Shown: piece after piece, positions 29,150-54,943 of the stretch
How the letters are laid out: each line of letters opens with the position of its first letter
Numbering within the stretch: the first letter of the stretch is position 1
Assembly (NCBI GenBank): GCA_963669155.1
Contig: OZ022577.1
Coordinates: 28,211,237 to 28,275,236, forward strand
Direction: 5' to 3'
DNA from: Arbacia lixula
Lineage: Eukaryota > Echinodermata > Echinoidea > Arbacioida > Arbaciidae
Length of the DNA stretch: 64,000 nucleotides
Translations under genes and position numbers: made by a program
Notes under the pieces: model-generated
Seen by the model: only the letters and a program-made list of their open reading frames with translations
Databases searched by the model: none
What the model was told of the DNA's origin: nothing

Positions 29150-30594
29150 CTAGAGCAATTCGACTGCCACGCAGTCGATAAATATGCCTCCGCCTCTTTG
29201 CTATTCTCAGAAAATGTGTATGTTTGGTGGGCAATACACCATTGCTCCTATGTGAAATGAAAATATCACATTCTGTTTTTTCAAGTTTAGCCAAGTTTGG
29301 CAATGTTCATTGACTTTTGACTTCTTACTCCTGTGCCTTCCAATCTAACCAGTCTGTCTAAATCCATCCTATCTAAAATTAGCCAATTTTGGGTGAAGTT
29401 CATTGACCTTTGATCTTTCAGGAATTTTACCCAAACTTCACCAGTCTACCTCAATGAAGTAATACATCTCTGTACTATGTTTGGTTTGAATTGAATCATT
29501 AGTATTGGATTCAATGTGAAAAATATCTATTTGGGGGCAATTTTTAGCCAATTTTTGGCAAAGTTCATTGACCTTTAATCCCTGACCTTTGAGAAATTTC
29601 ACCAAAAATGTCATCAGTTTAGTAGTGATCCATCGTTGCACCATGTTTGGTTGGTATTGCTCCATTGCATTTGGATATATTTTGAAAATTATCACTTTGG
29701 GGGCAATTTCATTGACCTTTGACCTTTGAACTCTCAAGAGTTTTACCCAAACTTTCACCAGCCTACCTCCATAAAGTGATACATCTCGTACCATGCTTGG
29801 TTAGAATTGCGCCATTGGTTTTGGACTTGGGTTTATTGTGAAAAATATCAATTTTTGCAAAGTTCATTGACCTCTGACCTCTGACCTTCCAGCAATTTCA
29901 CCAACAATATCACCAGTCTACCCCCAAGTAGTGATCCATCGTTTCACTATGTTTGGTTGGAATTGCACCATTGGATTTGGATTTATTGTGAAAAATTTAA
30001 AGTTTGGGGCAATTTCTCGCCAATTTTGGCAAAGTTCATTGACCTTTGACCTCTGAACTTTCAGGAATTTTACCAAAAATGTCACCAGTCTATCCCCAAA
30101 TAGCGATCTATCTTTGTACCATGTTTAATGAGAATTGCATCCTTGGATTTGGATTTATAGTGAAAAAGGTCAACTTTTGGCAAATTTTCACAAATTTCAT
30201 TGACCTTTGACCTCTGACCTTTCAGTAATTTTACCAAAAATGTCACCAGTCTATCCCCAAGTAGTGATCCATCTTTGTACCATGTTTAATGAGAATTACA
30301 TGCTTGGATTTGGATTTATTGTGGAAAAGGTGATTTTTGGGACAATTTTTACAAAGTTCATTGACCTTTGACCTTTGACCTCAATCAGATTTGACCCAAA
30401 CTTTACACACTTCATTAGTTTCATGCAATACATACATGTACCAAGTTTGAAGCAAATCTGGTTAGCGGTTCTCAAGATATTGCCTAAACGGATTCGGGAC
30501 GGACGGACTTACGGACGGACGGACGGACGGACGGACGGACGGACAACCCGAAAACATAATGCCTCCGGCCACTTCGTGGCGGAGGCATAAAAAG
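29150..30594 (-). mobile_element. Pearl/Helentron-like element, copy B (inverted relative to copy A)
   Basis: The same family as 8185-9569 in opposite orientation: CTAGAGCAATTCGACTGCCA at the left edge, and the (GGAC)n microsatellite (about 30498-30543) and palindromic GCCTCCGGCCACTTCGTGGC plus GGAGGC at the right. It has about eight diverged core units with TGACCT direct repeats, for example three in a row with 1-bp spacing at 30201-30220 and again at about 30361-30381. The two copies lie about 20 kb apart and flank SYNJ2BP. No coding capacity. Confidence 0.85.
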
Positions 30595-33604: not shown

Positions 33605-33904
33605 TTAATTGATTACGCCCACACTGGCCACGCCCTCAACGGCACTACCTCCCGTTGCCATGCTATCATTAGCCACACCTCCAGTTACCATGACACCATT
33701 AGCCACACCTCCATTGGCAACTGCTCCCTTAGTGACGTCTCCATTAGCCACACCTTCCTTAGCCACATGTCCATTGGCCACGCCTCCATTGACCACGCCA
33801 CCATTGGCCACGCCTCCATTTGCCATATCCTCGGTGGTCACAGCCAGATTGGTCACACCCCCACAGTCTTGCTCATCATCCACAGACTGGATACTCTTGT
33901 TACC
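33605..33904 (-). CDS. Scavenger receptor exon 12: pentapeptide-repeat cytosolic tail
   Basis: The last coding exon (residues 516-614, stop TAA at 33607-33605) opens after TTCTGTGTAG with an in-frame stop across the acceptor, so translation must enter by splicing. The preceding exon ends phase 0 (MEEQ|GNKS). After a short acidic lead (SVDDEQD) come about 14 degenerate pentapeptides of consensus V-A-N-G-G, from about residue 542 to the end (DNA 33826-33608): MANGG VANGG VVNGG VANGH, and so on, to VASVG VIN. It has no charge clusters and no recognisable PDZ ligand. Tails in this family are usually roughly 10-45 residues. Confidence 0.88.
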   Translation of the reverse strand, partial: GNKSIQSVDDEQDCGGVTNLAVTTEDMANGGVANGGVVNGGVANGHVAKEGVANGDVTKGAVANGGVANGVMVTGGVANDSMATGGSAVEGVASVGVIN

Positions 33905-36900
33905 CTACACAGAACACATGCAACATCACAGAAATAATAAAATAACAGGTCAATAGATAGATACCTGAACCCTCTCAGTACCAAGCCAAAAAAAGCCCAT
34001 TGACTTAATACATATTTCATGTAATTTTGGCGTTGATGAGGTTAAGTGAAATAACATGTACGAACTACAATTCACGCATCAAGGGGATGTGGATATTGGT
34101 CAAAAAGAATTACACATTATTATAGCAACTACAGTGGAGCCTGAGATCAAGTGCACAGTGATTGCAATCAAATGCAATCAGCTACATATATTGACTGCAG
34201 TCTGACTGCAATAGATTGCAATCAGCTGTGACGTTGATCTCAGGCCCAATTGTATGTATACCACATGACATGATTAAAGACAGGTGTCCCATTTGCAAAA
34301 GACATGAAACTTGGCAGGAATCAACAGTATACCCTAATAACGTGTATGAAATTTCATAGGCAAAGCTTCACAAACACTATTAGGTCAAGTGAAAAATTTT
34401 CCTTGTTTACGTTTGAATGGCACCAACTATAGTCTACCTTCATAATCGATTGTCCCTGTCAGTGCCCGATCCGGGAATTGCTCACATTGAACACATGCAC
34501 TGCGGAGCTGACTGGTGCGGACAATAGCGCACAGCGGTCGCCAGTCTCTATGCTATAGGTTTCGGTTGACCCACCCAAAACCTCCTCAAAACGTAGCGAT
34601 ATAATTTTGCTCAAAGTCAGGTTCCAATTCTATTATTGGGAGGATAGTTCTAATACAGAATCTTCTTCCAATTTTTTGTGATTTTTAGAAGAAAAAGAAT
34701 TGACCTGCAAAACACCTTGTCTTTAAACTCTGACTGAACATCACACACACAGCTCTGTTTTCCATTACAATGCGAACCATCAGTGGTAAATTTTTTTTTT
34801 TTTTACCATTCTGCTATTGATACTACTGTCATGAAGGGTGCATGGTTGACTTAGGTTATTGTTAATAAGTGCACCAAAAGTTGAACACCAGCAGCATACC
34901 TAGCCATGTGAAGCCTTTGTATTGAACATAGCTGAGGTATGCCTGGCATGTCACCATCAGCTTTGCCTTTAAACAAAAAGGGAAAATTTCACCTATGGGG
35001 CTTTGTGCAGCTTGTGCCATGCATGTGTAAATAGATAATTTCCTTATTTTGATTTAAATGCTAATGAGTTTTACAACTTGTTTGTAAAATCTAATATTCC
35101 ACATCTTTTTCATATTTCTGCCGTTAGTTATGATGTTTATATGTCCATATAACGTTTCAATGAAATTCCTAAAACTTGAAATTGTTTTTTGAAACAGCAG
35201 TTACCACAGTGGTATGGCTCAATTGTGTCCTATAGGGTAATTTAAGTTTATTCATAACCTGTGGTCTATTGTACAAACAGCAGATTGTATGGGAGTCATG
35301 CTACTTAGTATCTGGGTGGAAAAGAGCCAGCTTGCGTATCAGCAAGCTCAGTAAAAAAATAGGTTAAAGCAAATTTCATGTCAAGGAGATGGTTAATACT
35401 ATGGCGTGATATTCAACCAATCATATCAAATGATATTTTTCAAATGAGGTCTATAAAAATTCCAAAGCCCACACTAAAAATAATGTTTTTTCATACCATC
35501 AAGCTTCAGCCTATTATGAATACCCTGTTTGATTTTCTTTCATTACGTACAATATATTATATGATGTTTCTTTGGGCTTTCAATCCATCAAATTTGGTGT
35601 ATTATGAATAGCCCGTTACTTGAACTTCATTCATTTTTGTTTTATCAATGTGTAGAATATCTGCACTTTGTTCCAATTAACACATGTACTGTTGTATTCT
35701 CATCTGATGTATTGGAAATAAAGCAGAAAAATAAATAAATCAAATCAAAATCAAATAATGATAAATCAAGTAAGAGCATGATGAACGGAACAATAATGAA
35801 ATCTTCATGCTAGATATTTTTAAAGCTAATTGAGATATATTTACATGTTCTAATGTGCAATCTCCATCTATAAGTACACACACAAATTCATGTATTATTA
35901 TAATAAAAACCATGTGGAACAATATTTTCAAAAGAAGCATACAGTACAATTTTGTTTGTTTCTTAGTAAGCTTTTGCCATTGTCTATGAGACAATAGCAC
36001 TTCCTCTAACAAGTTTTTGTCATGAGATCGGCAGCTCGAAAGTTGCTCATTTAAAATAATGTCTAAACATAGAGCACATACCTGCTCCTCCATCTTGCCC
36101 ACTGGCGGATAGGCAATCCTCTTGGCAAACTTGTAGACGGTGAGAAGAAACACAAGGATGCCGATTGCAAAGATGATCCACTTGACAATCATCGCGATGT
36201 AGGCAGTCAAGACAAAGCCCGTCTTGTAGTAGTTAAGTATTCGGTCATTGGCTTCAACGCTCTGACACATGCCCAGGAAGATATGCAAAGAAAAATCAAT
36301 TTAGAAAGAAATCTTGCATCAGCTTGTAGTAGTTGCATCAGTCTTGTAGTAGTTAAGCATTCGGTCATTGGCTTCAACGCTCTGGCACATACCCGGGAAG
36401 AAATGCAAAGAAAAATCAATTTAGAAAGAAATCTTACATCAGCTTGAGAATGCAATGTTCCATTAAAGCTGTGTAAGAGTAAGTCCACCCTAAATTGAAG
36501 TTGGTTTTGATAAAAGCAGAAACATAAGTAAAGGTTTGACAAAAATCAAATGATAAGAGTGTTATGATCTCTTTAATTCTTTATTTTCTGCTGCCATGAG
36601 TGAGTTCCTCTCCCATATCTTGTGTACTAATTTTGTTGAAAATATCAATTTTCTAAAATAAAAATATGCATTATTTTACATGCACATTTGAAATATTATT
36701 ACAAATGTTTTTTTGTTCACCCATACCTATATACATTGTATATGATAAAGATTTAATCCTTCATCAAAAACAGAAAAAGAGTAATTTATGGAATTATAAG
36801 CACTTCCCTATCCTTTCACAAATTTCTGTCAAACCTCCACCAATATGTTTCTTTCATGTGTCTGACTTAATTTGAGCCAATCTACCTTCAGAATGGACTT

Positions 36901-39900
36901 TCCCTGTAACTTCAACAATGATATCAAGATAGTTTGAAGACCTCATATCTTATTAAATTTAACATAACATGAAAGCATGCATAAAATTAACACTTATATC
37001 AAATCACACTTATATTTTCTGCTTTAAATTCCTCAAGAATATTTTTATTCAAGTATTCTCCATATATGGCTAAATAAACCCAACTTTTTCAGGGTTAATA
37101 AAGAGATACTTGAGGGAGAAGCATCACGCACAATCTCTGGTCAGTTTCTGTCCCTCGGGTAGGATGTTAAACAGAGGTCGATGTAAGGATCGGCCACACT
37201 CTACACACGTTAAAGAACCCACTTCACTTCTTGACTATTAAAGAGCAGGATGAAAACTTGTTTGAGAGAGCCTACACTGCAAAACGGGTGAGAGATGCCG
37301 AGCCCTCATAGTTCACCCCAGAAGGCCATATAATCCTACAAATGGCATCATACGGGCATTAAGTGTGCCATACTAATTAATGATAACCTGGACCACGTTG
37401 CATAAGACTTACTTTAATGGAAAATACCATGGTAACATCGCTTAACAGCCAATCAAACGCAAGGTTCCCATAGAAGCTGCCATTGGTAGCAAAGTTACCA
37501 TTGAAGTTTAAGTTTTATGCAACAGGGCCCTGGTCAGTTCTACTCACCTGCTCAAACCAAAGCACAGGCATCATCATGTTGCGGACATTCTCCACCTCCC
37601 TAAAGCAACAGAGATGAGAGAGAGTAAATGTAAATGGGGATCATGAGTACCAGTGTCCTGGTAATACATACATCTACAATAAATTGTTTCAAACTAGTTT
37701 TCAGCTTTTTCGAGTTATATGTTTCGCCAAAATATCTGAAACATTTCATTCCATGGGATCACTGTTTAGGAGATCCCCATAGTTTACATATGTTAAAACT
37801 TAATTTGATCGTTAGAATAAGTACCCACAATTAAATCAAAATGACCTTAAAGGTTTGAGGTAGTTGTTGGAATGATTACGGCCTATAATCATGGCAGATC
37901 CATTCTACCGTCATCACCAGGTCCGGATTTCACTTCTTTTCAATGATTTTCAAAATTTTGAGATGCATCCTTCCTGGTATCCTGAAATAAAACCACAATA
38001 GGACCCATGGTAGAGGTAGAACAGCGCTCTTACTGATTACAGATCCCATAATCTCTAGTTGTACTTACCTTTCAGACATCAATCATACTTGAGTACAGGC
38101 TTGTTCGAAAACAGATACTTGAGATATGGAGCGCACTGATAACATTGTGTGTGGAGAGAAGGTCAACAGGAAGCAAGGACAAACTAAAGCAGGTTGACTG
38201 CCACACAATCAATGAATATGCCTCCACCTTGATGTTAGATAATGTTTTGATTTAAAAATCATCAATGGTCAGAAAACTTGTGTGTTTGGTTGAAACTGGA
38301 CCAGTGGGTCCCTAATTATTGCCAAAATGTATTCACCTTTGACCTCTTATCTCATCAATCTATAACATCTCTGTACCACATCTGGTTGAAATTGGATCAT
38401 GGTATTTAAATTTATAAGCAAAGGTATCATATTGGGCCTTTTTTGTATAATTTTGAAAAAGGTCATTGAGCTTTGACCTCAGAATAATTTGACCTCATGT
38501 TGTATGGCATTGGGTGGAAACTGAAACAATGCAATTTTGGTTATTGCAAAAAATATCACTTTGGGGCCATTTTAGCCAATTTCTTCTTAAAGTTGTCAAA
38601 TAATTCAACCTCTCTTCACGCTTGATCAGTGAACAGTGACTGATCAGTGACTGATCAGTGAAACAAACAGGGGAAGAGTGGTGAGGTGTTTAAAGATTTA
38701 CAAGAGAAGAGAAAACAAATTTTTATCTTACAAGAAAGGATGTGAGACAGGCACACGGATCTCCCCTGGTTATTAAAAAGACCTTGAGAACTTAAGAGGG
38801 TGTGTGAAGATAAAGGTCACCTGCAGACGATCCGATCAGTCTTACAACTCTGAAAATTGCTAAATCACAGAACACGATCTCTGGACTTGTGGAAGAAGGT
38901 TACATCACATTTCCAATCGTACGCCCTTATAGCCACAGAATCTTGGCATAAACGTAACTTCTGCGGTGGCCTCAAGACCTTGGGAACTTTGTGAGGTATA
39001 TGAAAATTTACAGCAGAGATGGATAAAGAGAATGTGTTCTTACATAAGGCCCTGGGAACATGACAAGGTGTGTGAAGACTTAATAAAGGAGAAAGGGATC
39101 GAGAAAATATGATCTTACATAAGGCCTTGAACTCATGGCAAAGTGTGTGAAGATTTAATAAAGGAGAAAGGGACAGAGTGAATGTGATCTTACCTCAGGC
39201 CTTGGATATCTGTTTGCAAGGTGTGTGATGACTTACAGGAAAAAGGTATAGAGAGAATGTAAGAATTTGGGAACTTGGAAAGTTGTGTGAAGACTAAAAG
39301 GAGAAAGGGACGGAGGGGGAATGTAATCTTACGTCAGGTCTGGCACCGGCACAGTCTCCATGCTGATCTGAAGCCTCATCTTGAGAATGTAGGGCATGCC
39401 CATCAGCTGTAGCAGCACAGAAACAGGAAGCAGGGGAATGGGAGAAAGAGGGCATACGTGAGAGCAGGCATGGGAGGGAGGAAGGAAGTGAAGGTAATTC
39501 ATGCATAGGATATCAACCATTCAGTCAACAGTGTGAAAGTTTGGTGTTACGGCACTGACCCTGATGGAGGTATGAAAATATACCACCACCAGACTACGTC
39601 CATGCACCACACACAACCATGCAGTCTGTTAAATACTTCAACAAGATGCACATGATATGCATGATTTGATTACTATTATCATGCTCTACATGTATGCTCT
39701 ACAGTAAAGGGCCCAGCTCACAAACAAATTTCATCTTTTGTTTGATATTGCATTTCTTTCTTTGTTTTTCACAATAGTTGAAATATATCAAAGGAACTGA
39801 ATACAGCTACAGCTAAGTCAGTGATGTGACTTATCATGTCATAGGTAATGGAGAGTAAAGATGGTGAAGATAACAGGTCCAAGAACACTACTAACACAAG

Positions 39901-42900
39901 GTTTAAAATGCAGTCATATTTTTTTCACCCCTCAGTTCTTCCAGAAGCGTGTAACAAGTCTGTGATTTAGACTACTGAATAAACATGAAAAAAGAACAAC
40001 TACCGGTATACTTGGCTAAGAGCCAGTTTTAAAGTACAATACAAGTACATGTACCATACTTGACTCTGTAGATTCCATGTTGTTTAGGCCCTTAACTCAC
40101 TTCTAGATTTTATCTTCTAGATACACCACAACAAAAAAACATTCATAAATATTCCTCACCCCTTTGTCCGTTTTCCTAAAGGTTGGGCCACTAATTTTAG
40201 AATTTGTTTCTTTCTTGTTGTTCACATTCCATTTGTACCCCTTTTTCCTGCATTTTGAATTGCATGAAAGCCCACAATGGATTATCCATACAATGGGATG
40301 TCTGTGATGATCTTGCCATCACACACAGAGCCTCGTATTATAAAGTAGTGCTATCAATCTGAACTGCATGATTGCAAGTCCAATCCCCTATCTCTAATTG
40401 TGAGTTACAATGGACATCCCAGGCAAGTTGAGATTCATCACAATTCTTTTTAAAAGGAAAGTCCACCTGATGTCAAGTTGGTTTTAAATATAGCAGAAAA
40501 ATGAAAACAAGACATTAGTGAAGGTTTGATGAAAATCTGTCAAAGGATAAGAAAGATATGGTTTGTTTAATTTATAATTTTGTGACATCAAATGTGAAAT
40601 ACTCTCCCATATGTCATGTGCTGAATAACTCCATAAATTCCCCTACTTCTGGTTACTGATAAAGGAATAAATAATTTACTTAGAGGTATATGTGTAAAAT
40701 CATCTAATCAAATGATATATTAAATGTGCAGACTAAATGGTATATATCCTTTGAGAAAATGGCAATTTTTCAAAAGATCAGTTCACAACTTAAGGGATAG
40801 TATCTCCCAAGTGACATCACAAAAAAATAATTTGTGAAATCATAACTCTATTATCATTCATGGATTTTTGTCAAACCTTCACAAATTGTTTCTTTCATGT
40901 TTTTGCTTTCATTCAAACCAACTTAATTTCAGGTTAGACTTTCCCCTTTAAGACATGGTCCATGGACTCTATCTAACAAAGCACTTGAGGGCACTCACTG
41001 GTTCTATCTCCATGTAGTGCTGGTGGTATTTGGCCTGAGGATCTAAGCCCCCGACAGCCTCGTAGAGGGCAGGGTCTCCCTGGAAGAAGTGAGGGTTGGA
41101 GATGGCTGATGGACTTCCTGCATGGGTGAAGAGACGTGGGGGAGGGATGGAAGTGGAAAGAGAGGGGGAAGAGAGGAATAGAGAGAGGGGGGGGGGAGAA
41201 GGAAGGAAAGGAAGGAGGGATAGAATGAAAGAGGTAAGGAGGAGAGGGTGGAAAAAGGGAAGGGAGGAAAGGAAAGAAAGACCCCCAAAAAAGGGGAAAA
41301 AAAGCATAAAGCATAAAACATAGGCAGGTGTAAGGCGTACCCAGTGCTCATTTTATAACGCATCATCACAATTTGTTTTGTGTGTGCAACATACATCTCT
41401 CTGCACCAGCAAGGCACAACCAATCCTGCCGAGAGGCCAGGCATGATATTGGGGCACCAGAACAAAAAAGCAGGTCAAGTATGACAGGGCAAAGGCCAAG
41501 TTTTGTCGTGCCTGGTTGCTGCACTTGAGGACAGCATATAATTGCCACACGTGCTGTGATAGCATAAACACAAAGCCCATATTTTACACTTCTCATGGAC
41601 AACTCAAGGAAAGTTCATTGACCCTTAACCTCACGCACTTTCAGGCATCACTGTTGCTACTATAAACATCTACACAATGCAGAAGAAAGCTGAGATCAAC
41701 CTCCTAGTGCAGACAGTCAAATGCGAGGCATAATATTGTGATGTAACATGATTTTGTGTGATATCCTTTGGGGTAATATCGCACAACATACTTTTGTGCA
41801 ATCATGGGAGAGGTTTACGATACACCATGTGTAAAGTCCTGGAAGGACTGAGATGAGAAAAGGTGGATAGAATTGGAGGTAAATTGGAAAGGCGAGAAAG
41901 TGGAGAATTCGAAAGTAGAGTATTCTTTCAAAATGAGCGCATGTAGTCCATAAAAGGACTGTAAACCAGGAGAGAAGTAGAGAAGTAAACTCAACGTTTT
42001 TCGTGCTATATTGTGTAATGTGTTTTTGTGTGATTTTGTGCAACACACTTGTGTGTGATATTGTACATATGCTTTGGTGTGATATTGTGCAACATGATTT
42101 TGAGTAACATTGTGTAATGTGTTTTTGAGCGATTTTGCGCAACACGCTTACGTGTGATAGTTTGCACATGGTATTTTTTCGCCAAGGTTTTCACATCAAC
42201 AATGATGAGAGCCCGAAAGCCAAAGATTTGTTATCACCAATTAAAACCATGTGCCAAGTTAGTTTGAAACAAATTAAACAGAGATACCAATGACTGTGCC
42301 ACCCCATGAAATAATGATGTCTTTGTTTTGTACCAGCTTCACAGGCAAGACAAAGTAAACAATGCCATTGACACACTGATAACTCCCAAGGAGATATACG
42401 TGCCACTTCAAGAGTTTGCACAAAACAATGGTAAAATCGTGAAGATATCAAAATGTTAACAATGCTTCAACTTGAATTATGGACAAACTAGAAATACCAC
42501 CTGCTAAGGAGCTGCAAAGTAAATATAATTTGGCATAATGAGTATGGGATTGCTCTAGATAAATGTCCATGTCATTGTCTCTCTTCAGTCATAAAAAGTT
42601 GGATGAGTCGCTACACATTATCAGCAAATATCGTGCAAAGAGTTTTTTTATCTGATATTGTTGTTCATTTGCAAGATAAATATCTAAATATCTTTATTCA
42701 AAGGACCTAACCACGTTTTGAAAACACCAATGGCTTACTATGCATTTTAATGCTAATGGTAATGAAAGAGAGAGATTAATTAGTCAAACCTGTTACTACA
42801 GAGAGCACCAGTAAAACAAAGATAAAGATCTTATTCTTTAAATATTTCCGGATTCTTGCGGCCTACGTCAAGTCTTCTTTTCTGCATACTTTCAAGTGAA

Positions 42901-45900
42901 ATACATGTAATTCATATTATTGTAATTTAATGATTATTTAATTAACAATTATTGTAATTGCCATTAAAGTGTTTTTTTAACTTTCTTTGTAACTTATGAA
43001 TATCAATTTATTTTGTTTGTATGGTAAATATAATTATGATGAAAGGAAATTAATGTTTCAAATGGAATAAAATTGAATGCATTCTTCAGGCATGAAGTAC
43101 ACCATGAAATTAATATAGGTAAGAGAATCTGGGTTTAACTGACTCATGTCATAGATCTATGTAATCAATGTAATACTAACTATTAATATTTTTTTCTGCA
43201 ATGCTTCTCACTTCAAAATTTCTTGTCAAACAATTGTTTATCCATGATTTAAAATGAGTCATAATAGGTGATTTGTCCTTACCAAATCGACAAGGATCCT
43301 GCCTCATGATGCCTGACGGCCCACACAGATCATGGTCCTTCTTGCAGAAGCCTGCGTTGGGAGGGTAGTCCGACCCATTGCTGTACGCGTAGGACGCCAG
43401 AGTAAACTTCAGCAAGGGCACGTCTTTGAACACAGTGTCCTTCTCATACAGGTATGGCACAGACCTTGTATGGGTTGAAAATAAACAAGGGATGTATGAA
43501 GGAAGGTATTGCAATGCTCTAAAAAAAGAAATATGTTATTAAACTAAAAGAAGAAAGATGAAACCCTCTCAAGCAGAAATTGTCAAAGCATATATCTTTC
43601 AAAACGTAGTGTTGCTTTATAAACAAAACAAAAAATCCTGTTTGCAAATATGCATTTACTGTTTTCCTTGACTTGAAAATTTGTATTACTAAAATACCTC
43701 AATAATGCAACTGAGGAACATCCTTGATCTCCTGTCAACATACTCAATTCAAGTATCCTTGTTAGTGCCCTTCTTCTAAACACTGAACATTTGCATCGAC
43801 ACTAACATGCTTAAGGTAATGATCCCAAACAGTCTCTGGCAAGCATCAATTTACATGTCACGTTGCGTGCTACGAATGGCATTACAGTTTGACACAATTC
43901 ATCTCATTTTATACCACCATCTTTCTGAAAGATTTAACAATGAGTCAATGATTGTGGCAGTCAGCAACGGGAAGAGCGATGTCACCTCCCTTCCTCAGAT
44001 TCAAGTCTAGGTCTGTCCATGTCTGAAATGTTGAACCCCTTCACAACTGGTTGTTGAACTCAATCACAACTTTCAGCTAATCATGTAAAGTGTGCATACT
44101 TTTATCATGGCGAGATTGCAGCCGACTAAATATAAATCATGATAAATAATTCCTCTCATGTGAAGATCTCTAGAAAGATATAAAATCTTGAACTCCAGAC
44201 AAATAGGTCTGATTAGGAAGCTGCTGTTACATGTATGTCACATGTAAAGCACATCTATTCACACCAATAACAATATTATGGCTGATTTCCAGCTCAAGGA
44301 GATCAGTTTGTACATCATACTTTTTTTTATCATTTGTTCTCTTTAAATGTGTACATGTACATGCAGCATTTGTTGTGTATTCATTTCTTTATGATACTCT
44401 TATCGTTTTACGTTGAATGGTAAATTCACAAACTGAAGTGAAGGAATGAAATGAAACTTGTATAGTTCTAAGTTCTAGAATAAAATATTGTACTGCTTAC
44501 TGGTTGCATACATGTTATTCTTGTAAGCCAACATTTCACCAGGGGCCTTGGCACAAAAGAGAAACGTTTCGAGGGAAAAATATCCACTTAAGTATCAACA
44601 TTTAGTTTATATTCATATGGTAGGGGAACAAATAGGTCTGAATTCTACACAAACTCATCAAGCCATGTCTGCTACCAATGAATCAAGCTATAAATCTATA
44701 CAGATGATGATCTGTTGCCAAACAAAAAGGGTAACAGTTGTGAATACATTACAGAAATGGCTTCTTAGATCAGACGGAAATTACATTATTTACCTGCACA
44801 AATCTGGATGAAAAAGGTACAGCTTTTCAGCTCTTGATATGTACGGGTGATACATTGTCCCATCTGTGAAGTTGAACATAAAGGTTTAGTGTAAGTCACA
44901 ACCTTTCAGACTCCTAAATTTTACCAACTGATTTACACAAAACAAACAATTGGATAATTGTTAATGTCAATAATTGAAATAACTTACACAACGGAGACCT
45001 AAAGTATAATATCACATAAGATGTCAATATGAAATCTGATGTAACAAAACCTAAGATGAGAGGCATTTGTTTTGCTATAAGATACAACCACTTCTCAAAA
45101 GATTGAACAATCTAACAATTTACAAGTTAATAAGTTATGAAATATTTTCCACTCCTCGAGATGAATTAGAATGTGACTGCAGAGTTGTCCACAGAGTTGG
45201 GATGACCACGACACACATTCACCCTTAAAGGTCCCCTATCATCAAAATGTATGTCGACTTATATTGATGCAACATAATATGTACATAACAAAATCACTAA
45301 CTGTTCAATGGAAATATGCGTCCTATATTTTAATATAATTTTTTCTTTATTTTTTCTCAGCACTGATAAGCCCCGCCTCCAAAATATCCTCCAACTCAAG
45401 ATTTCCCCCTGTGACATCATCAAAGGTAGAAATTAGCAGGATAATAAGCAGAACTTATGCACAAATTAAACATTGCAATGACTACCTCCACCTGCCCACA
45501 AGAGCATCACATGTCTTCACACAATACCATCTAACAACGTTTCATGTGGGAATAACCGTTTCCTTATGCCAGAAATGTGCTAGCTATGTGATGCTATTAT
45601 AAACACTTGTCGGTAGTCATTGCAATGTTAAGTCTGTGCATCAATTATGTCTATTATCCTGCTAATTTCTACCTTTGATGATGTCACAGAAGGAATCTTG
45701 AGTTGGAGGATATTTTGGAGGCGGGGCTTATCAGTGCTGAAAAAAAAATATAGAAAAATTATTTTAAAATAAAGGATACATATTTTCATTGAACAGTTAG
45801 GGATCTTGTTATATACATAAGTTGCATCAACAGAAGTAAACATGCATTTTGATGACAGGGGCCCTTTACTGTTCCACTAGTGGATTATGTCATCATTTAT

Positions 45901-47765
45901 ACATACAAATCCTAAAGAGCAGTATTTTATTTGACATATTAATGGTTCATACGGGAGGCCACACACCCCTTTGAGGTACATTGATTTGGAGGGTGCAGTT
46001 TTCATCAGGTCACTCTGAAGTCAATATGTTGCCAGAGACTATAACGTTTAACATGATTTTTATTTCTAAAATTGTTGTGTCTGACTATGAAACTTGTTTC
46101 AAGTTGTGAAAATATCAATTACTCTAAAAATGAAGTTCGATATCACTACATTTATCTAAAACTGTTATTATATTTTAACATGATTTCGTTATTTTTCATT
46201 TTGTTGGATAAAACTTGTTCCATGTGTCCCAGTTATCACAAACTTATTTAGGTCATGATATCAACTTTCTCGTGATACCAGAAACACCATACTTTGTGGG
46301 ATTAAAGGCAAGCAAACTTGACTTTGCAAAGAGGTGTATTATTCAATAAATAAAGGTTCACTCGCACTAAGCAGGATGTGACCACTCCAGTGACAGCATT
46401 CCTTTATTTCAATGGAGGTCACTGTCGTTTGTACTCATTTTTGTTCAATTATTGATTACTTCTACCAGCTTACATAACCCCGTATTCTGAATGTACATTA
46501 AACACAAACAGTTTATTACACCTGGACTACCTTTATGGGATGCCAAAAAACCCAAAATGAAACATTATCATTGATTTAATACAACTGATTTTTTCTTCAG
46601 AATCACTATGGTTTATTGGGTTTGTCCAGATAATCACAGTGAACAATTGAAATTCACCACAGGTGATTCTCTGATGAAAAATCAATGATTTTGTGATTGT
46701 GATTTCCGCCAATAAAGTCAGTCTACATTAAGTCCGTAGTTCAAGTTAAACCAACGTTGTGACTCCGGGCCAATGACTCTAACTCAATGTATATTAAGAC
46801 TTGCATGTATCTGCGCTGTAATATTGCATGTACACCGCTCTGCCGGTAACACGCAAAGAGTTAATATGTACACAATACCTCACCATCATCAATGCAGCTT
46901 TTCTTTGCATCACTGAACACATCGCTTCCTTTCGGCCTATTTGTTCTTTTTATCACTAGGCAATCTACTATCAGGAAGGGCCATGCTACTAATTTCATCA
47001 TCAGTTGTTTGTCATGCAAACTATTCAAATATTTGACATGTCACAGTCATAGCCGACCTTCTTGTATATGAGCGTGTGAGCCTTACAACTGGTGCTCTGC
47101 CAATGTGTTAATTGTCAAAGAAGACTGGTTTTACTTTACTTCATATAAAAGTGTGTGTGGGGGGGGGGGGGGAGGGGGGTCAAGGACGGGGAGCCTACTC
47201 TAGCCCTTGACCACCACTGACTCGCCTGTTCCACTGAAGTCATTGGCTTCTCCATACCACCAGGGCAGGGAGAGACCAAGCCATGGAAGCCTTCTCTACC
47301 TCCTGATTACCACTAACTCACCTGTTCCCTAGATGTCATTGGCTTCTTCATACCACTAGGGTGGGGGGGGGGGGGGGGCAAGGCCTGGGGAGCCTACTCT
47401 ACCCCCTGACTTTCACTGACTGACCTGTCCCATTGATATCATTGGCTTCTCCGTACCACCAAGGCAGGGAGAGACCAAGCCATGGAAGCCTTCTCTACCT
47501 CCTGACTTCCACTGACTCACCTGTCCCATTGATATCATTGGCTTCTCCGTACCACCAGGGAAGAGAGGCCATGCCCTGGAAGCGCTCTACCAGATTCACC
47601 AGGCTCCGGTTTGCTACCCCGTCGTTCACCGTGTACAGGTTATCTATGGTGTCATTAAACTGTCAGGAGCAGAGAGAAATTCACATCACAGCAAGGCTTA
47701 CAATAAAATACACCATTGCATGACAACAATATCACTTTGGATACGATGGCATTTAAAGGAGAGTC

Positions 47766-47822
<57 letters not shown>

Positions 47823-49383
47823 ACAGTACACAGGCAGACAATATGACCAGTTAATATAGAAAATTACAAAAACGGAAGAAAAAAAACAAATATATACACA
47901 TGGTTCACGGATACTATCTTATTCACTTGCAACAAATACCTATACTAGTTGACATTAAAGAGGCTTTAATATGACTTTAAGACATTAATCATCCATTCTT
48001 TCTCTAATTCTCTGCAAAAAATGCTAATTCTACCATCCTACACACATGTTTACATACTTTTCATAATGTTATCAGTATCATTAAAGGAATCCCTTCTCTC
48101 TTTTAAATTCCATAAGTCATACACATTTTCTTCCTCTATAAGGTATTAAAAAAATCTTCCCTTATTTCCTCCCCCCCCCCTTCAAATTTTATAACTGTTT
48201 CTTCATTTTTTTTAGGTAACATTCGCATGAGATCTTTGCCAAGCATAATACACTTACCCCAAGCAGGAATCCAAACTCGCCCTGGTCAAACCCGGGAATC
48301 GTAATGATTGGTTGGATCAGCTTAAAGAGCGGCTCATCGTATCCCCATAGCAACTCTTCAACCGTCTTGTTCAAGGTTAGTTTCTCTCCAAGGAGTTCCA
48401 TGAGGCCATTTGTGAGTTTCCTCACGGCAAAGCCAGAATTGCGTACAAAGTAAGCCACTGTCTGCATGGGGAAGGGGGGGGGGGGCAGATGAGTGGTCAG
48501 GAAATAAATGCAACAAGTATGGAACATTGTTCCATGAGCTATGATTAACATTCTGAACATATACCTGGGTATTTGCAAACTTACATCAACATAATTAGTC
48601 GTACATGGAGAACAATGACACAAGAACTCATAAAACCATTACAGTTGTCACATAAATAGTTGATTTATTACCTCAATTTCTTCATCTGATAAGCATAATA
48701 TCAATCTATATTTGTTACATTGAAGACATTATAAAACCGATGATTCAGTTAAATATTTCACTTCTGTGGACAAAGAAGACAAGCTGTTTGTGTTCTCTTG
48801 AGTTTAGATCAATACAAATATTTACATCACGGGTGTGAAATCAGGAGACCAGTCTTTCAGAAACAGCCACGAAAATCAAACACCTTGATGCACACCAATT
48901 TACAAAGTGAGTAAAAGAAATGAAAAACAGACATACACAGAAGAGAGTGAGAGAGAGAGAGAGAGAGATAAAGCCAAAGGGAAATATTCAGATACATAGT
49001 TGAGAAACAGACAAACAGTAAAGAAAGAGAAAGGGAGAGAGAAGGGGAGAGAGGAAGGGAGAGAGAGAGAAAGGGAAAGAGAGAGAAACGGGGATAGAGA
49101 GAAATCATACAGAGAGGTGAAGACAAAAAGAGAGGCAGAGGCAGAAATAGAAATAGACCAGGCAAATAGAGAGATAAAGAAAAAAAACAGAGACAAAGAG
49201 AATTGCACACACGCACACACACAGCCTTCTTTCAAACGTGCCAGCATTACTGCAGGTTGATGCTGTGCACATGACTCAGTCTAAGGTAATGAATTGAGAG
49301 AGAAGAGAGATAAAGAGATGGAGAAAAGGAAAAATAAAAATAAACAGGTATTCTAAAAGATAAACAAGGAAAGAGAAAAAAGT

Positions 49384-49437
<54 letters not shown>

Positions 49438-52400
49438 CACTCTCCCAAACATACCAGCATTACTGCAGGTTGCTGCTGTGCACACAACTCACTTCAAGGT
49501 GATGAATTGAGAAAAATACACAGAAGAATGAGAGAGAGAAAGATAAAAGGAGAATGAGACAGGCATACAGAGAGATGGAGAAGAGGAGCAAATTGCTGCT
49601 TGGGGCATGACTCACCACAAGAGGCATGTTCAAGGTGATAAATCTGTCGGACTCTGGACCCACAGAACGCTCCTCAGCAAACGAATACAGGTACCTCGGA
49701 CGGAAGGACAGGGTGCCATTGTCGTAGCGTGATAGGTTCAGTCTGTCAAACCCTAACCTAGAAGCACAAAAATCAATCATGATATAAAGCAGAGACAACA
49801 AAATCATCCCACTTGCAACTTTGGACTAAATATGAAAATATGTTTGATCTATCAAAATTCAAAGGGGCAACATATACAGGCAAGGATATCATGGTCATAT
49901 TGGTACGTTACTATAGAATATTTTTTTTTAAAGACACAACTCTTAAGAAAAAACAGTGCCCCAGCGAAATACAGATCATTAACCCATGCAAATGTCAGAA
50001 AATCAAAATGTATTTTTAACCAGATGAATACAAACATGATGAACCTTGAGCACATCTCTAGAAAGATCCATAAAGTATCAGCAAGCTTTTAACTAGTTAA
50101 ATAGCACAATTATTCATATTACAATGTAGTGATGACCTGTTGATGTAACTTGAGTTTCAAGCTATTTATACAAGTCACCATTGTACACTGAATACAAATT
50201 GGCATATTGGTTGTGATGTTTGATGTAGTAAAACCTTTCAATTCAATTAGGATGGACATTTCTTTCATGTAGCATAATTCCTCATCATACCTTAAGCAAA
50301 TATAAAAATTTGCCTCAGCAGTAATTCACCAGTTAAACAACATGTACGAAAGTTACCTGTGTTGCCTCTGTGACTAATAGTATCTAGGCTATAGGTTTTG
50401 CTCCCAAACCTACTCATAATTTAGCGATTGCTATAACTCAGGTTCCAGTTCAATTATTGTGATGAAAGTTCTTATACAGATGCTTCGTTTTTCGGGGGGG
50501 TTTTAACCTACAGAAGGGCTCCACTGTCTTTAATTTACTACAACTTGCATGGAGACAGCATCATTATTTTCATTCTTGTTTTTGCTTTCTTTTGTTCCAT
50601 AGCTGTGAACCCACAATGAGCAGGAAGATCCTCCATTCTGCCCTTTTTCATCATGTAAAACAGATTCATAAAATGCAGTTGTACTACATTTGAAGTGAAT
50701 CCAGCGAACAAGAACCAAATCATAAATAATTCCTATCCATATGTAACTTTTCAGGAGCCTGCTTTAAGTTTCAGTGGCCATAGGCCTCATAGTACAAAGA
50801 TCCCAGCGATGTGAAGTCATCGAGAGAAGACAAAAAAATTCAAATGGCATGCATAGAAAGTACCTATAGTAAGTATGACATCATATGAGCATGTTTTCAA
50901 GACAACTGGTTCTTAACTATGTGAGTAGAACAAACAGTAGTGATCACAGCAGGAACTCTCACTGGGAGTGCCTGACACTAGCCCGCTATCCTCTGTAGAC
51001 CAGTGAAAATCTCACTTGAGTGCTTTTGTTTAGAACAAGAAGCCGGCCCAATAATGGATATGACATACTACTGCGGTACTCTATTGGAAATGGAAAATAC
51101 ACCATACTTGTACACATATGGGCCCCTCTGAATGACCTCTGGTTTGCCACCAGCTTTGAACTCCTCTGGGTTCTGGATGTCAAAGAAGTAGAAGGACTGA
51201 TACATGGGGATGTTTGGTGTGAGCCACTCTGCATACAGTGGTGACTTTGGGTCTAGCTGCATCATCTGCACATAGCAGGAAACAGAGAGATACAACAACA
51301 TGATAGCAGGAACCCACAAGCACATCAATCAATAAAACAATTAAAAATAATTTTGACTAAGTGAGGAGGAAACCACATGAATTCTCCATAAGTTCTAAAA
51401 GCGGTATCTTAATTTGCCATCGTCTCATTTTGTCAACATTGATAAACACGAAAAAACAAGATCTTTTGTAACATTGAATTATTCATCAAAAATATAATGT
51501 GAAATATTTTCCAGCAAAGGTATATTGAATATGGGACAATTTAATGTCACAAGTAAACACATGGACTCATTAGTTGAGTAAGTCCATGTCTATTTACACA
51601 TGATCACCTCTTCGCATTGCATCATCAAACTAAACTCAATATCAGTAATGACAGTGCAATCTAAATGTCTCAAGTAAACACATGGACTCCATACCGGTAG
51701 TTGAGTAAGTCCATGTCTATTTACACATGATCACCTCTTCACGTTGCATCATCAAACTAAACTCAATATCAGTAATGACAGTGCAGTCTAAATGTCACAA
51801 GTAAACACATGGACTCCTTAGCAATCTAAAATCTAAATGTCACAAGTAAACACATGGACTCATTAGTTGGGGTAAATCCATGTTTTATTACACAAATACA
51901 CAATATCACCTATAAGCAATGCATCAGCAAGCTTACCTCAATGTTTTTAATGATTACACATTTGCACAGCATAACTCATCAGCACGAGGCAACGTTACAA
52001 AACAGAGTAGAGCAAATACCGGTACTCCTTTTCTTGGAATGGAATATTGAGCATGTCCCCAAAATCAAACAATAGCAATCTTTTGGTTGCTCTTGCTGTG
52101 GGCTAGGGAAAATGAACAACCAGTGCCACTCATTAACAATATACGAGAAAAAAATTAAAGTCAGCTTCCAGACAAATGTAATGCGAATTCGCGTGGAATT
52201 TGCCATTGTGACCCAGCAGCCCAAAATGAGACACTTGTTGCAAATGATCATTTTTTTAGTTTACACCTTATTCTCCGTGCCCTAAGCTTTAATTTGATAC
52301 TTAAATCATAGATTTTGGTGGCTTGGGCGCAGAAATACAACTATTTTCATGTAGAAAATATAAACGGCAGTGAAAAAAAAGAAACAGAGAAATTCGCTTT

Positions 52401-54638
52401 CAAAGAATACGATACGTTTTGTGCAGTCATGTGATTGGTCGCTCTAGACAATAGGCTAATGTATAATGCATGATTTGCGAAGACACAGAATGTAGAAAGC
52501 AAAGAGAAAAAAAATTACAATCACACAAATAGGTGATATCTAAATTAACATGCGTTTGCTTGTATTGAGACGATTATCAAAAAATAATGAATGTGATACT
52601 AGTTGGTATAACCGTTACATTGAGCGAGAAATATCACAAATTAGATACTGTCTGCTGTTTATTACGATTTAACATCAATCTTTGTTAGTGCAACGCCAAT
52701 TGCCGTTAAATATCATAGAGAATGAGACGCTATGGTAATATCAACCCGGAAGTGTACACAGGATGACGTCACATTAGCATGTTGTCAGGATTTCCAATTA
52801 TTGCGATTGATTGTTATAATCATTGTTATAGTCAAGGTGATGATGGTGATAATTGTCATCATATTTATGATCATGGCGATGCTAACGATGGTCACGGTGT
52901 TGATTTAATATGATGATGAGACTGATGATTATGATGCTCATTATGACGATCGATGATTACGGTGGTCACGGTGTTGTTCATAGCGATCATTTCTATGGTC
53001 ACCGGTGATGATGATCATCATTATTATTACAACAGGTACCACAAGCAGCGGCTTGGATCGATGATCAGTGATAGAAGGTTTATTCTCTCGGTCAACTGGC
53101 AAAATCATACAACTATTTGGAGTAACAGAACAAAACAAACAAAAAGCTTTCACATCGCAGCACAAACTTTTGAGAGTTACAAGTCTTTTCAAAGAGCTGA
53201 AAAATGAGCAGGATGCAAGATCATCTCCATTCCGGCGCATATTTCTTAAAAAGAGAACGAACACTAAATCGCGCACCGTCGATTAGCAGGCTATTAAAAA
53301 TAACAGTCGGCGGATTTGAAGGCGGCTTGAGAAATGTAGTTACGACCATGATGATCAATGATCACGGTGATGATGATTATCATCATAGTTATGAACATGA
53401 AGATGATTACGATGGTCACGGTGATGATGAAGATGATAATTATAATAGATTGTGGGCGGATTTGAAAACCAATGAGAGACGTGGGAGGTGAATTGCTTAT
53501 GGTAACGATCACCTGTCTTACCCTATAGCAATAATAATGATAATGATTGTGAAACGTAACCAAAAAAGTGTTCGAATAAGAAATATTTTGCAGTCCTTTT
53601 AACCATAAGTATCAAAAAATAAATTTGTGTTGAGCTCTGACCAGTGCGTACAGTAAAAGCTACATTTTCAGGTGAATCCGGGTCATTCATTCATTGATTA
53701 ACTGACCACAACACACACAATAGAGCAATGCATCTACGCTGCGCCACCGCGCCGATCTCCTTAGAAATCGGTGCCTCACACATCAGTTGTACAAACCGCG
53801 AAAAATAAGCCAATGAACGGCGAGCAGTAACTAAGGGGGCGGAGCTTAGACCACTATCCATGCAGGTCTTTGCATTGCTCGCTCTGGAGGCACACGCAAA
53901 ACGCAAAACTCACATAAACATGACTTCAGAAAAACAATAAAATTTCATCTTTAGATTTATTCTTTTGGTCTGAAATTTTGACACATGATAGATTAAACTA
54001 TGGACAATCTTATAAGGTAAAGATACAAAAGGTCGATTTTTTTCGTTTGATGATCTTTTTCGTTTGATGAGTTAATTATCAATTTTCTAGGTTCGAGCAA
54101 GCGCGACTTGTCAACTACTTTGGGCTGTCGGGTCTCATATGGTAAGTTAGGTCACAAAATGAAAACCTAGTATCTGTCATGGATTTGACAATCGAGACGT
54201 TTGTATGACACAATTAGATACGGTAGATTGAGGAAAGAGAGAAGGAGAGGGAGACTTAACGAGAGTGAGCAGTGAGCTTCATAGTAACTCTCTAATTATC
54301 ATTGGCAGGAAGATGTGTAGTAAACCAATGGGGTTTATCAAGGCCTGGTAATATCAGTAGGTCAAGTTTAATGTGAATTACCATGGAATTGCCCATATGG
54401 TGAGCATACTAACCAGGTTGATGACGTAATTGTAGATCTCTGCCATGCCCCATGGTATGAGCAAAAGTGCCGAGAGCACTAGGGCGAGCCCCAGCAGCAT
54501 CAGCACCCCGTAGCACACTCCTCGCTTGGCGGACATGGTAGCGCAGCGCTGCTTGATGGACCTTTGGTCTCCTCGGCAGCCAGGTGTCGTCTGCTTGCTT
54601 CCCAGAAGGGGCTGCTCTTCTTCAGGGATGAGTGCCAT
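33605..54638 (-). CDS. Class B scavenger receptor (CD36/SCARB family), 12 exons, 614 aa
   Basis: Two-pass glycoprotein of the CD36/SR-BI/LIMP-2 family, which binds or transports lipids at the cell surface or works in lysosomes. Exons (complement): 54414..54638, 51108..51265, 49616..49757, 48258..48461, 47521..47659, 44794..44863, 43283..43464, 40999..41117, 39333..39406, 37548..37599, 36082..36261, 33605..33904. All junctions are GT-AG and phases match; total 1845 nt. TM1 is about residues 41-63 and TM2 about 477-499, around a large ectodomain. Family marks: FYFFDIQNPEEF, GPYVYK, LLWGYDEPLF, NDINGTDG, LCRSVPYLYE, NAGFC, CRFGSPSAISNPHF, PVLWFEQ. Seven N-glycosylation sequons: N135, 141, 206, 245, 260, 287, 342. 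Ectodomain cysteines C312, C353, C360 and C371 fit two of the three CD36 disulfides. Unusual: a dileucine signal at the N-terminus and a ~115-residue repetitive C-tail. The paralogue (SCARB1, SCARB2 or CD36) cannot be fixed from sequence alone. Confidence 0.95.
33608..33826 (-). repeat. 15-bp coding minisatellite
   Basis: On the plus strand, units read like GCCACGCCTCCATTG, with the period of 15 bp kept throughout, so every substitution is in frame with the pentapeptide. The period being a multiple of three also leaves plus-strand frames open (33578-33937 and 33609-33956); these are shadows. Confidence 0.9.
34540..34740 (+). repeat. Interspersed repeat pair member (with 50385-50530)
   Basis: It shares GCTATAGGTTT, ACCTxCTCAxAA, TAGCGAT, CAGGTTCCA, TTCTATTATTGxGA and TTCTxATACAGA in the same order with 50385-50530. 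Both copies are in introns of the scavenger receptor. Family unknown. Confidence 0.5.
36302..36445 (-). repeat. Duplicated 5' edge of scavenger receptor exon 11
   Basis: The segment around TCGGTCATTGGCTTCAACGC at 36361 repeats the one at 36241 at an offset of exactly 120 bp. It carries a copy of the exon 11 acceptor (CAG|AGCGTTGAAGCC) and the first ~14 codons, then reads into a stop (TGA) and has no donor. It lies in intron 10, upstream of the real exon. It is a decaying pseudo-exon edge, not a functional alternative exon. Confidence 0.85.
36476..36906. mobile_element. Long-inverted-repeat element, family L, copy 1
   Basis: The left arm (AAGTCCACCCTAAATTGAAG, TTGGTTTTGATAAAAGCAGA, GGTTTGACAAAAATC) mirrors the right arm (TTTCTGTCAAACCTCCACCA, TTTCTTTCATGTGTCTGACT, GAATGGACTTTCCC). 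The same family occurs at 40452-40950 and 60548-60985. Confidence 0.8.
37135..37395 (+). repeat. SINE-like interspersed repeat, copy 2
   Basis: It matches 22890-23170 in word order (GGATGTTAAACAGAGGTCGA, GGCCACACTCTACAC, AAGAGCAGGATGAAAAC, GTGAGAGATGCCGAGC, CCCAGAAGGCCATATAA, ATACGGGCATTAAGTGTGCC). It lies in scavenger receptor intron 10. Confidence 0.55.
38183..38600 (-). mobile_element. Decayed 3' part of a pearl/Helentron-like element (copy C)
   Basis: Starts CTAAAGCAGGTTGACTGCCA and continues ATGCCTCCACC, matching the terminal hairpin and subterminal repeat of copies A and B with several changes. It is followed by diverged core sequence (GTGTTTGGTTGAAACTGGAC, CACCTTTGACCTC, GGTCATTGAGCTTTGACCTC). 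The 5' half is missing. In scavenger receptor intron 9. Confidence 0.7.
38780..39345. repeat. ~73-bp tandem array running into the exon 9 donor
   Basis: Units of GGTGTGTGAAGA, TTAATAAAGGAGAAAGGGA, AATGTGATCTTAC and TCAGGCCTTGG recur; the ATCTTAC word falls at about 39039, 39112, 39187, a degenerate copy near 39259, and 39326. The last one is the genuine exon 9 5' splice site (minus strand GAC|GTAAGAT). Others keep donor-like strings, for example CCTGAGGTAAGATCACATT at about 39200-39182. Confidence 0.8.
40452..40950. mobile_element. Long-inverted-repeat element, family L, copy 2
   Basis: AAAGGAAAGTCCACCTGATG, TCAAGTTGGTTTTAAAT and AGTGAAGGTTTGATGAAAAT at the left pair with GATTTTTGTCAAACCTTCAC, AAACCAACTTAATTTCAGGT and AGACTTTCCCCTTT at the right, arms of about 85 bp. 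The interior includes TTTTGTGACATCA / TGACATCACAAAA, also inverted. It ends about 50 bp from exon 8 in intron 8. Confidence 0.85.
41125..41295 (-). repeat. Long polypyrimidine tract before exon 8
   Basis: On the plus strand this is almost all purine (GGAGGGA, GGAAAGAGA, GGGGGGGGAGAAGGAAGG). On the coding strand it is a ~170-nt pyrimidine tract directly upstream of the exon 8 acceptor (CCATGCAG|GA at 41118). It is far longer than needed for splicing. Open frames through it are compositional. Confidence 0.8.
41730..42180. repeat. Degenerate TGTG/GCAACA-rich minisatellite
   Basis: Phrases TGTGTGATATTGTGCAACA, GTGTAATGTGTTTTTG and ATTTTGTGCAACACxCTT recur with a subunit of about 26 bp and a larger unit of about 105 bp (compare 42010-42075 with 42112-42175). 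A separate block at 41735-41805 belongs to the same family. Intron 7 of the scavenger receptor. Confidence 0.65.
45226..45868. mobile_element. Foldback transposon with ~250-bp inverted arms
   Basis: The left arm (45226-45485; AAAGGTCCCCTATCATCAAA, AAGCCCCGCCTCCAAAATAT, CATCATCAAAGGTAGAAATT) is repeated inverted at 45605-45868 (AATTTCTACCTTTGATGATG, ATATTTTGGAGGCGGGGCTT, TTTTGATGACAGGGGCCCTT). The loop is only about 120 bp. No coding capacity. Intron 5 of the scavenger receptor. Confidence 0.9.
47195..47560 (-). repeat. ~98-bp tandem copies of the exon 5 3' edge and donor
   Basis: The real exon 5 end (minus strand ATCAATGGGACAG|GTGAGTC) is repeated downstream in intron 5. CATTGGCTTCTCCxTACCAC recurs near 47241, 47339 (diverged), 47440 and the true 47537. 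At about 47423 the ACTGACCTGTCCCATTGATA copy is nearly identical to the true 47516 site. Each copy keeps about 30 nt of exon-like sequence plus a donor-like GTGAGT or GTCAGT, without an acceptor. Poly-G tracts (47158-47172, 47365-47379) interrupt the array. Confidence 0.85.
47770..47821. repeat. (GA)n microsatellite
   Basis: About 25 uninterrupted GA units, roughly 110 bp upstream (in gene orientation) of exon 5. It is a mirror-symmetric purine tract able to form triplex DNA. Confidence 0.95.
48944..49110. repeat. GA-rich purine tract
   Basis: (GA)n at 48944-48968 and AAAG/GGGAGAGA-type sequence at 49019-49100. Open frames on both strands are low-complexity Ser/Leu or Arg/Glu peptides. Intron 3 of the scavenger receptor. 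Confidence 0.85.
49385..49437. repeat. (CA)n microsatellite with flanking duplication
   Basis: About 26 CA units. The flanks are duplicated: GCCAGCATTACTGCAGGTTG at 49239 and ACCAGCATTACTGCAGGTTG at 49451 are each followed by CTGTGCACA-ACTCA-type sequence, an offset of about 212 bp. Confidence 0.9.
50385..50530 (+). repeat. Interspersed repeat pair member (with 34540-34740)
   Basis: Contains GGCTATAGGTTTTGCTCCC, TTTAGCGAT and CAGGTTCCAGTTCAATTATT, in the order seen at 34540-34740. Intron 2 of the scavenger receptor. Confidence 0.5.
50905..51000 (+). repeat. Interspersed repeat, copy 2 (with 425-550)
   Basis: CTTAACTATGTGAGTAGAAC, AACAGTAGTGATCACAGCAG and CTCACTGGGAGTGCCTGACA match the minus strand of 425-550 with substitutions. 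Confidence 0.5.
51547..51900. repeat. ~120-128-bp tandem repeat in intron 1
   Basis: GTCxCAAGTAAACACATGGA begins units at 51547, 51667, 51795 and a short one at 51839. Full units continue with AGTCCATGTCTATTTACACA, GATCACCTCTTC and CTCAATATCAGTAATGACAG. The last unit decays toward 51960. Confidence 0.85.
52790..53460. repeat. GATGAT/GGTCACGGTG degenerate minisatellite in two blocks
   Basis: Blocks at 52800-53030 and 53340-53445 are built from GATGATGATGA, GATTACGATGGTCACGGTG and ATTATCATCAT-type words. The intervening 53035-53290 is more ordinary sequence with a 72-codon frame of no recognised family. This is intron 1 of the scavenger receptor. Confidence 0.6.
54414..54638 (-). CDS. Scavenger receptor exon 1: N-tail with dileucine signal and TM1
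   Basis: 75 codons, ending CTG|GTTAGT. The start is the ATG of MALIPEEEQPLLGSK; the codon before it is TTG and no earlier in-frame ATG was seen nearby. The cytosolic N-tail is about 40 residues, longer than in vertebrate relatives (about 5-12). It carries E7-E8-Q9-P10-L11-L12, fitting the [DE]xxxL[LI] adaptor-binding sorting motif. Basic residues (KR at 38-39) precede TM1 (GVLMLLGLALVLSALLLIPW), consistent with a cytosolic N-terminus. A second Met (residue 35) could serve as an alternative start that removes the signal. Confidence 0.9.
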
Positions 54639-54732: not shown

Positions 54733-54943
54733 GACTTGTTTGTCCTCAGCTGTTTGAATGAGCACTTACCTGCCGATATACGGATAAATAAACAAACAAA
54801 CACAGAGGTATATAACCTTGACTGTTGCAATATCAAAGACTTGTTTGTCCTCAGCTGTTTGAATGAGCACTTATCTGCCGATATACGGATAAATAAACAA
54901 ACAAACACAGAGGTATATAACCTTGACTGTTGCAATATCAAAG
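54733..54943. repeat. 105-bp tandem duplication upstream of the scavenger receptor start
   Basis: ACTTGTTTGTCCTCAGCTGT occurs at 54734 and 54839, offset 105 bp, and the two units are almost identical. On the gene strand each unit has TGTTTGTTTGTTTATTTA (forkhead-like), CAGCTG (E-box) and, in the proximal copy only, GGCAG|GTAAGTGC at 54770, a strong donor consensus; the distal copy has GGCAGATAAG. The duplication starts about 95 bp upstream of the ATG, so it may be promoter or 5' UTR. Confidence 0.85.

Follow-up and report, generated by a model that had tools for sequence, protein, structure and literature searches.

A CD36-family receptor gene of Arbacia lixula with a putative cytosolic tail of VANGG-like pentapeptide repeats

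The window analysed here, a stretch of 64,000 nucleotides from the sea urchin Arbacia lixula, carries, on its minus strand, a CD36-family gene that extends from 54638 to 33605. The gene model was obtained from open frames and splice signals joined by script. It consists of 12 exons that encode 614 amino acids with no inner stop, and GT-AG boundaries are present at all 11 introns. Exon 1 (54414..54638) encodes the N-terminal cytosolic tail and the first transmembrane segment (TM1), as indicated by the TM1 hydropathy peak and a homologous exon 1 in a paralog on C11, and it ends at a phase-0 donor. Residues 6-12 of this tail, EEEQPLL (54603..54623), match the acidic dileucine pattern [DE]xxxL[LI]. 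In the spliced model exon 1 is followed, also on the minus strand, by exons 2 (51108..51265), 3 (49616..49757), 4 (48258..48461), 5 (47521..47659), 6 (44794..44863), 7 (43283..43464), 8 (40999..41117), 9 (39333..39406) and 10 (37548..37599). Exon 11 (36082..36261) encodes the end of the ectodomain, the second transmembrane segment (TM2, placed by its hydropathy peak) and the first ~17 residues of the C-terminal tail (KFAKRIAYPPVGKMEEQ), and ends at the phase-0 donor GTATGT. Intron 11 (33905..36081) is 2177 bases long. Exon 12 (33605..33904, minus strand) encodes a 99-residue C-terminal tail and the stop codon TAA; it contains a VANGG-like 15-bp coding array (33608..33826) that was delimited by Tandem Repeats Finder, translation and a unit search.

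Membership in the CD36 family, which the first-pass annotation had already claimed, was confirmed for the complete 12-exon gene. The Pfam CD36 profile (PF01130) covers residues 49-499 of the protein with E=1.8e-129, from profile position 2 to 462 of 463. A hydropathy analysis revealed two transmembrane peaks that flank the ectodomain, at residues 43-61 (TM1) and 477-495 (TM2). The search of the PDB matched eight distinct sequences, all of them LIMP-2/SCARB2 or platelet glycoprotein 4 (CD36), with E values from 2e-65 to 5e-60. When the transmembrane segments were included, CD36 was the top match (224.2 bits, 2.3e-65); with these segments left out, LIMP-2 scored slightly above CD36 for the ectodomain (210.8 vs 206.8 bits). 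The ectodomain has four cysteines (312, 353, 360 and 371), which align with LIMP-2 cysteines in the PDB alignment. Class B scavenger receptors are described by a CD36 domain, two transmembrane helices and short cytosolic tails; the first two are present here, and the C-terminal tail, at ~116 residues, is not short. We treated the domain and the two helices as the defining features and the length of the tails as a descriptive one, and for this reason the gene is a member of the CD36/class B scavenger receptor family despite its long tail. The gene was not assigned as a LIMP-2/SCARB2 orthologue, since its C-terminal tail has no acidic dileucine. Its relation to LIMP-2 was judged by the bit scores of the ectodomain.

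No second CD36 gene was seen in the window; the additional tblastn matches were weak or fell on the antisense strand of the array and on incomplete copies of exon 5. Intron 5 contains tandem copies of the 3′ end of that exon and its splice donor (47161-47583), and a pattern search located further ones at 47452 and 47253, with GTCAGT and GCGAGT at the donor position. The start of exon 11 and its acceptor are likewise duplicated just upstream (36221-36446; 120-bp unit, 1.9 copies, 94% matches), which creates a partial decoy exon 11. Among viral contigs, a search for genes closely related to that of the receptor gave three pattern matches, none of which was confirmed, and an Rfam scan of the window returned no matches. 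Elsewhere in the window, very regular arrays were found at 27208-28247 (157 bp, 6.6 copies, 98%) and, just upstream of exon 1, at 54733-54944 (105 bp, 2.0 copies, 99%). Two 161-bp arrays (8405-9239 and 29549-30328) have consensus units that look mutually reverse-complementary by eye. Open frames at 13350-14600 on the minus strand look like parts of a non-LTR retrotransposon.

In the case of the last exon, the frame is open from 33904 to 33608 and is closed by TAA at 33607-33605. Intron 11 begins with GTATGT directly after position 36082 and ends with TGTGTAG directly before 33904, and exons 11 and 12 join in phase 0. An in-phase join of this exon to the TM2 exon, adding 99 residues, had been proposed in the first-pass annotation and is borne out in the DNA. 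The same annotation had placed about 73 of these residues in five-residue repeats with a 15-bp period, and we obtained the same figure. Tandem Repeats Finder reported a 15-bp array at 33667-33825 (10.6 copies, 71% matches, 2% indels, score 120), and in the coding register residues 27-99 of the exon form 14 five-residue units followed by VIN, that is 73 residues. The consensus of the array, GTG GCC AAT GGA GGC, translates as VANGG. Periods of 30 and 60 bp were also reported by the program in the array, in line with block duplications of the repeat. With up to three mismatches allowed, the unit GTGGCYAATGGAGGY occurs 10 times in the window, each time inside exon 12; 100 shuffles gave a mean of 3.46 and a maximum of 7 occurrences, which rules out an array arising by chance composition.

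Together with the ~17 residues from exon 11, the exon gives a cytosolic C-terminal tail of ~116 residues, rich in Gly, Val, Ala and Asn. PMC10715195 calls the cytosolic tails of SR-B receptors 'relatively short', and PMC4030837 gives 11 residues (462-472) for the C-terminal tail of human CD36. The earlier contrast between short family tails and the one described here stands with regard to length, by a factor of about ten relative to the value for human CD36. It stands with regard to the array as far as the flanks of five paralogs were read, and none of these holds a similar one.

We considered whether exon 12 belongs to the main protein at all. The gene could instead use a different last exon or run on into intron 11, with the array a non-coding minisatellite that is open by chance. 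Several properties argue against this. The junction is in phase, the GC content of exon 12 is 54.5% compared with 35.1% for intron 11 and 35.5% for the kilobase that follows the exon, and its codon score was matched by only two of 217 non-exon frames of at least 60 codons. When acceptor and codon scores were combined, 33904 ranked first among the 333 AG sites between ~36.04 and 30.0 kb. On the other side, the acceptor score alone is modest, since 51 other sites of the 333 were equal or better. The open frame by itself means little, because the antisense strand of the same stretch contains two further open frames of 122 and 115 amino acids. Codon score as proof of the frame was dropped, because another sense frame of the repeat part, which has two stops, scores 0.296 and the coding frame 0.256. 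Read in a different frame, one site within the array has a codon sum of 23.4 vs 21.6 for exon 12, but its acceptor is poor. Third-position GC amounts to 65.8% over exons 1-11 and to 47.5% in exon 12, whose score per codon is exceeded by 10 of the other 11; this comparison flatters exons 1-11, because the score was trained on them with no exon left out in turn. A low indel rate was discarded as a sign of coding, since other low-identity arrays in the window likewise have 1-2% indels. No AATAAA polyadenylation signal was found within 1.7 kb after the stop, and the nearest ATTAAA lies 968 bases on.

Differences between the units were then compared as synonymous and non-synonymous changes, as had been proposed in the annotation, with a divided outcome. 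Diversity among the 14 units is 0.516 at the third codon position vs 0.200 and 0.374 at the other two, a value that random column sets equalled or exceeded in 44 of 3003 cases. Of 48 single departures from the consensus, 22 are synonymous in the coding frame vs 6 in each other sense frame, in a count where inherited changes are entered repeatedly. By distinct derived states, however, 8 of 24 changes are synonymous against an expected 28.9%, which is no real excess. The evidence for selection on the repeat is weak, and the evidence that exon 12 is coding is fair, not strong.

Paralogs in the same genome bear on both the junction and the alternative ending. A PF01130 search of the assembly (607 Mb, 590 contigs) gave at least 29 exon-by-exon matches, a lower bound, which group by position into six loci: the window gene, four loci on C7 (A-D) and one on C11. 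Ranked by summed tblastn bits, the C11 paralog (G000:C11:18751781-18757587 and flanks) is the nearest to the window gene among the five (409.8), followed by D (280.0), B (256.8), A (232.2) and C (211.4); its identity to the window protein is 40.5% over the matched pieces, and that of D is 41.2% over fewer residues. The TM1 part of its exon 1 is homologous to that of the window gene (score 92 vs a maximum of 37 in 500 shuffles). In the fetched flanks a TM2 exon is present in all five other loci, and in each an in-phase GT was seen by eye ~10-18 codons after TM2. This supports use of the donor at 36082, and a separate tail exon after TM2 looks like the layout of the family. The paralog frames nevertheless meet a stop soon after the donor, at 5 (A), 10 (B), 39 (C), 5 (D) and 8 (C11) codons, so these genes could end without a tail exon. 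In the window gene, reading on from exon 11 into intron 11 would add 113 open codons. According to PMC10715195, fusion of gene models seemed to account for some of the SR-B models that have long cytosolic regions. In view of the in-phase GT at a like place in the five paralogs and of the evidence from the exon itself, we nevertheless regard a protein that ends outside exon 12 as unlikely.

The readable sequence after the TM2 donor amounts to ~3.1 kb in A (the rest is N), 5.6 kb in B, 12.9 kb in C, 10.1 kb in D and ~17 kb, including a run of N, in C11. A tblastn search of the tail against these incomplete stretches gave nothing array-like; the best match (E 0.021) is a Gly-rich frame in locus C. 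The search for tail exons in the readable downstream sequence of A, C, D and C11 yielded only low-complexity or weak candidates. In the case of locus B, it gave a putative tail exon of 12 residues, GDDQSPLMNGGT, with a strong acceptor (9.58 bits); its site is the first in rank among 335. This candidate holds an acidic dileucine-like motif, which is weak evidence, because the same motif count after acceptor-like sites also gives matches in C, D, C11 and the window; A has none.

A further possibility, that exon 12 is one of several alternative tails, is suggested by mouse Scarb1, whose own exon 12 is included or skipped to give the differing C-terminal domains of SR-BI and SR-BII (PMC9771820). 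The position of the exon in the gene is similar, and other acceptor-like sites are present in intron 11 and downstream, such as 34966 (7.87 bits, 34-codon frame). Among the 12 best sites listed, however, codon sums are 1.5 to 6.9 for the three that lie outside exon 12 and 21.6 for exon 12 itself, and we consider alternative tails very unlikely.

The tail itself is probably disordered. AlphaFold2 run on the 99 residues as a single sequence gave a mean pLDDT of 44.1, a pTM of 0.15, one five-residue helix and no strand. No match was obtained for the tail in Pfam up to E 1, among solved structures in the PDB, or among phage proteins at E 0.01. A pentapeptide repeat protein of the beta-helix type was rejected on the Pfam result and the lack of any predicted strand. 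In the literature that was searched (titles and abstract openings, mainly from non-subscription sources), no repeat tail in a CD36-family protein was described. Against its own genome the tail gave 33 matches at E up to 10, including itself; the others are weak, and several lie in long open frames. The best non-self matches are at C2:12475172 (E 1e-5, 41%), C20:12415618 (1.2e-4) and C22:5118798 (7e-4), followed by lower ones, and the tail-like long open frames span C2:12475172-12475417, C20:12415123-12415869 and C22:5118477-5119031. Such matches could reflect shared Gly/Val/Asn composition, or other proteins with related repeats.

These properties allow the array to be viewed as a working multivalent surface, in which VANGG units at even spacing would recruit a cytosolic partner or favour clustering, and the number of repeats would tune avidity. 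Consistent with this, the register is maintained across the 14 units despite a DNA identity of only 63.1% between neighbours; the best-kept positions are A (11 of 14), V (10 of 14) and the first G (10 of 14); and the tail has weak matches in other open frames of the genome (best E 1e-5). Yet all five positions vary among the units, synonymous changes are not in real excess among the distinct states, and the tail has neither a known domain nor a predicted fold. A binding or length-tuning role of the tail is possible, but as an explanation a working multivalent surface seems to us improbable.

Known SR-B receptors carry their sorting and adaptor signals in the C-terminal tail. In the window protein, [DE]xxxL[LI] occurs only at residues 7 and 237, once in the N-terminal tail and never in the C-terminal tail; AYPPV in the latter also fits YxxPhi. 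An N-terminal acidic dileucine was found in two of the six CD36-family genes, the window gene (EEEQPLL) and the C11 paralog (DDDDAPLI), and the candidate first exons of A, B, C and D encode short N-terminal tails that lack it. Signals of this type are recognised by AP-1, AP-2 and AP-3, and one in the N-terminal region of mucolipin targets that protein to lysosomes (both PMC5297682). From the motif in the window gene and its closest paralog, its absence from the C-terminal tail and these known signals, we infer that the N-terminal tail does the sorting and that the C-terminal tail is free to drift. The N-terminal motif, which the first-pass annotation had not mentioned, bears on what the C-terminal tail need not do.

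The explanation we favour, and judge moderately probable from the sequence, is a disordered, loosely constrained C-terminal tail that grew by in-frame 15-bp duplication in a receptor sorted through its N-terminal dileucine. The last coding exon of a class B scavenger receptor would have been lengthened by tandem duplication of a 15-bp unit in frame. Sorting to endosomes and lysosomes would be done by EEEQPLL, a motif of the same type as DDDDAPLI in the closest paralog; this signal may have relieved the C-terminal tail of sorting duty, and the repeat would then have expanded as a flexible spacer under weak sequence constraint. A bolder version, which we find distinctly unlikely, is that the branch formed by the window gene and the C11 paralog shifted endolysosomal sorting from a C-terminal to an N-terminal signal, and that the C-terminal exon thus freed expanded in one member as a coding minisatellite, giving a length-variable multivalent tail that tunes receptor clustering. 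If this were true, the weak tail matches elsewhere in the genome would be other proteins using related repeats.

If the favoured explanation is correct, it suggests that an SR-B C-terminal tail can lose its sorting job when the opposite terminus carries a signal, and that slippage within a repeat can lengthen or shorten a receptor tail without loss of frame. The gene would then offer a natural way to ask whether a change in tail length is enough by itself to affect the trafficking of a scavenger receptor. Otherwise, the array would be an ordinary coding minisatellite in a disordered terminus.

Among the known relatives, the C11 paralog shares with the window gene a long N-terminal tail with an acidic dileucine and an in-phase donor after TM2, and differs in the lack of a VANGG-like array in what was read downstream, a stretch that contains a run of N. 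LIMP-2/SCARB2 resembles the window protein in being marginally the best ectodomain match, in the four aligned cysteines and in having an acidic dileucine in kind. The signal of LIMP-2, however, is C-terminal, whereas that of the window protein lies in the N-terminal tail and its C-terminal tail is a long repeat. SR-BI/SR-BII (SCARB1) is similar in that the C-terminus is set at a late exon, but no SR-BI chain was among the PDB matches. We know of no repeat in SR-BI, and the GVIN end of the window tail is one that we take not to be of the PDZ type, unlike that of SR-BI. CD36/SCARB3 shares the CD36 domain, the two transmembrane helices, the top PDB match with these segments included, and the number of coding exons, usually 12 in vertebrate CD36 (PMC4030837); the window receptor differs from it in having four ectodomain cysteines instead of six and a C-terminal tail of ~116 residues instead of 11.
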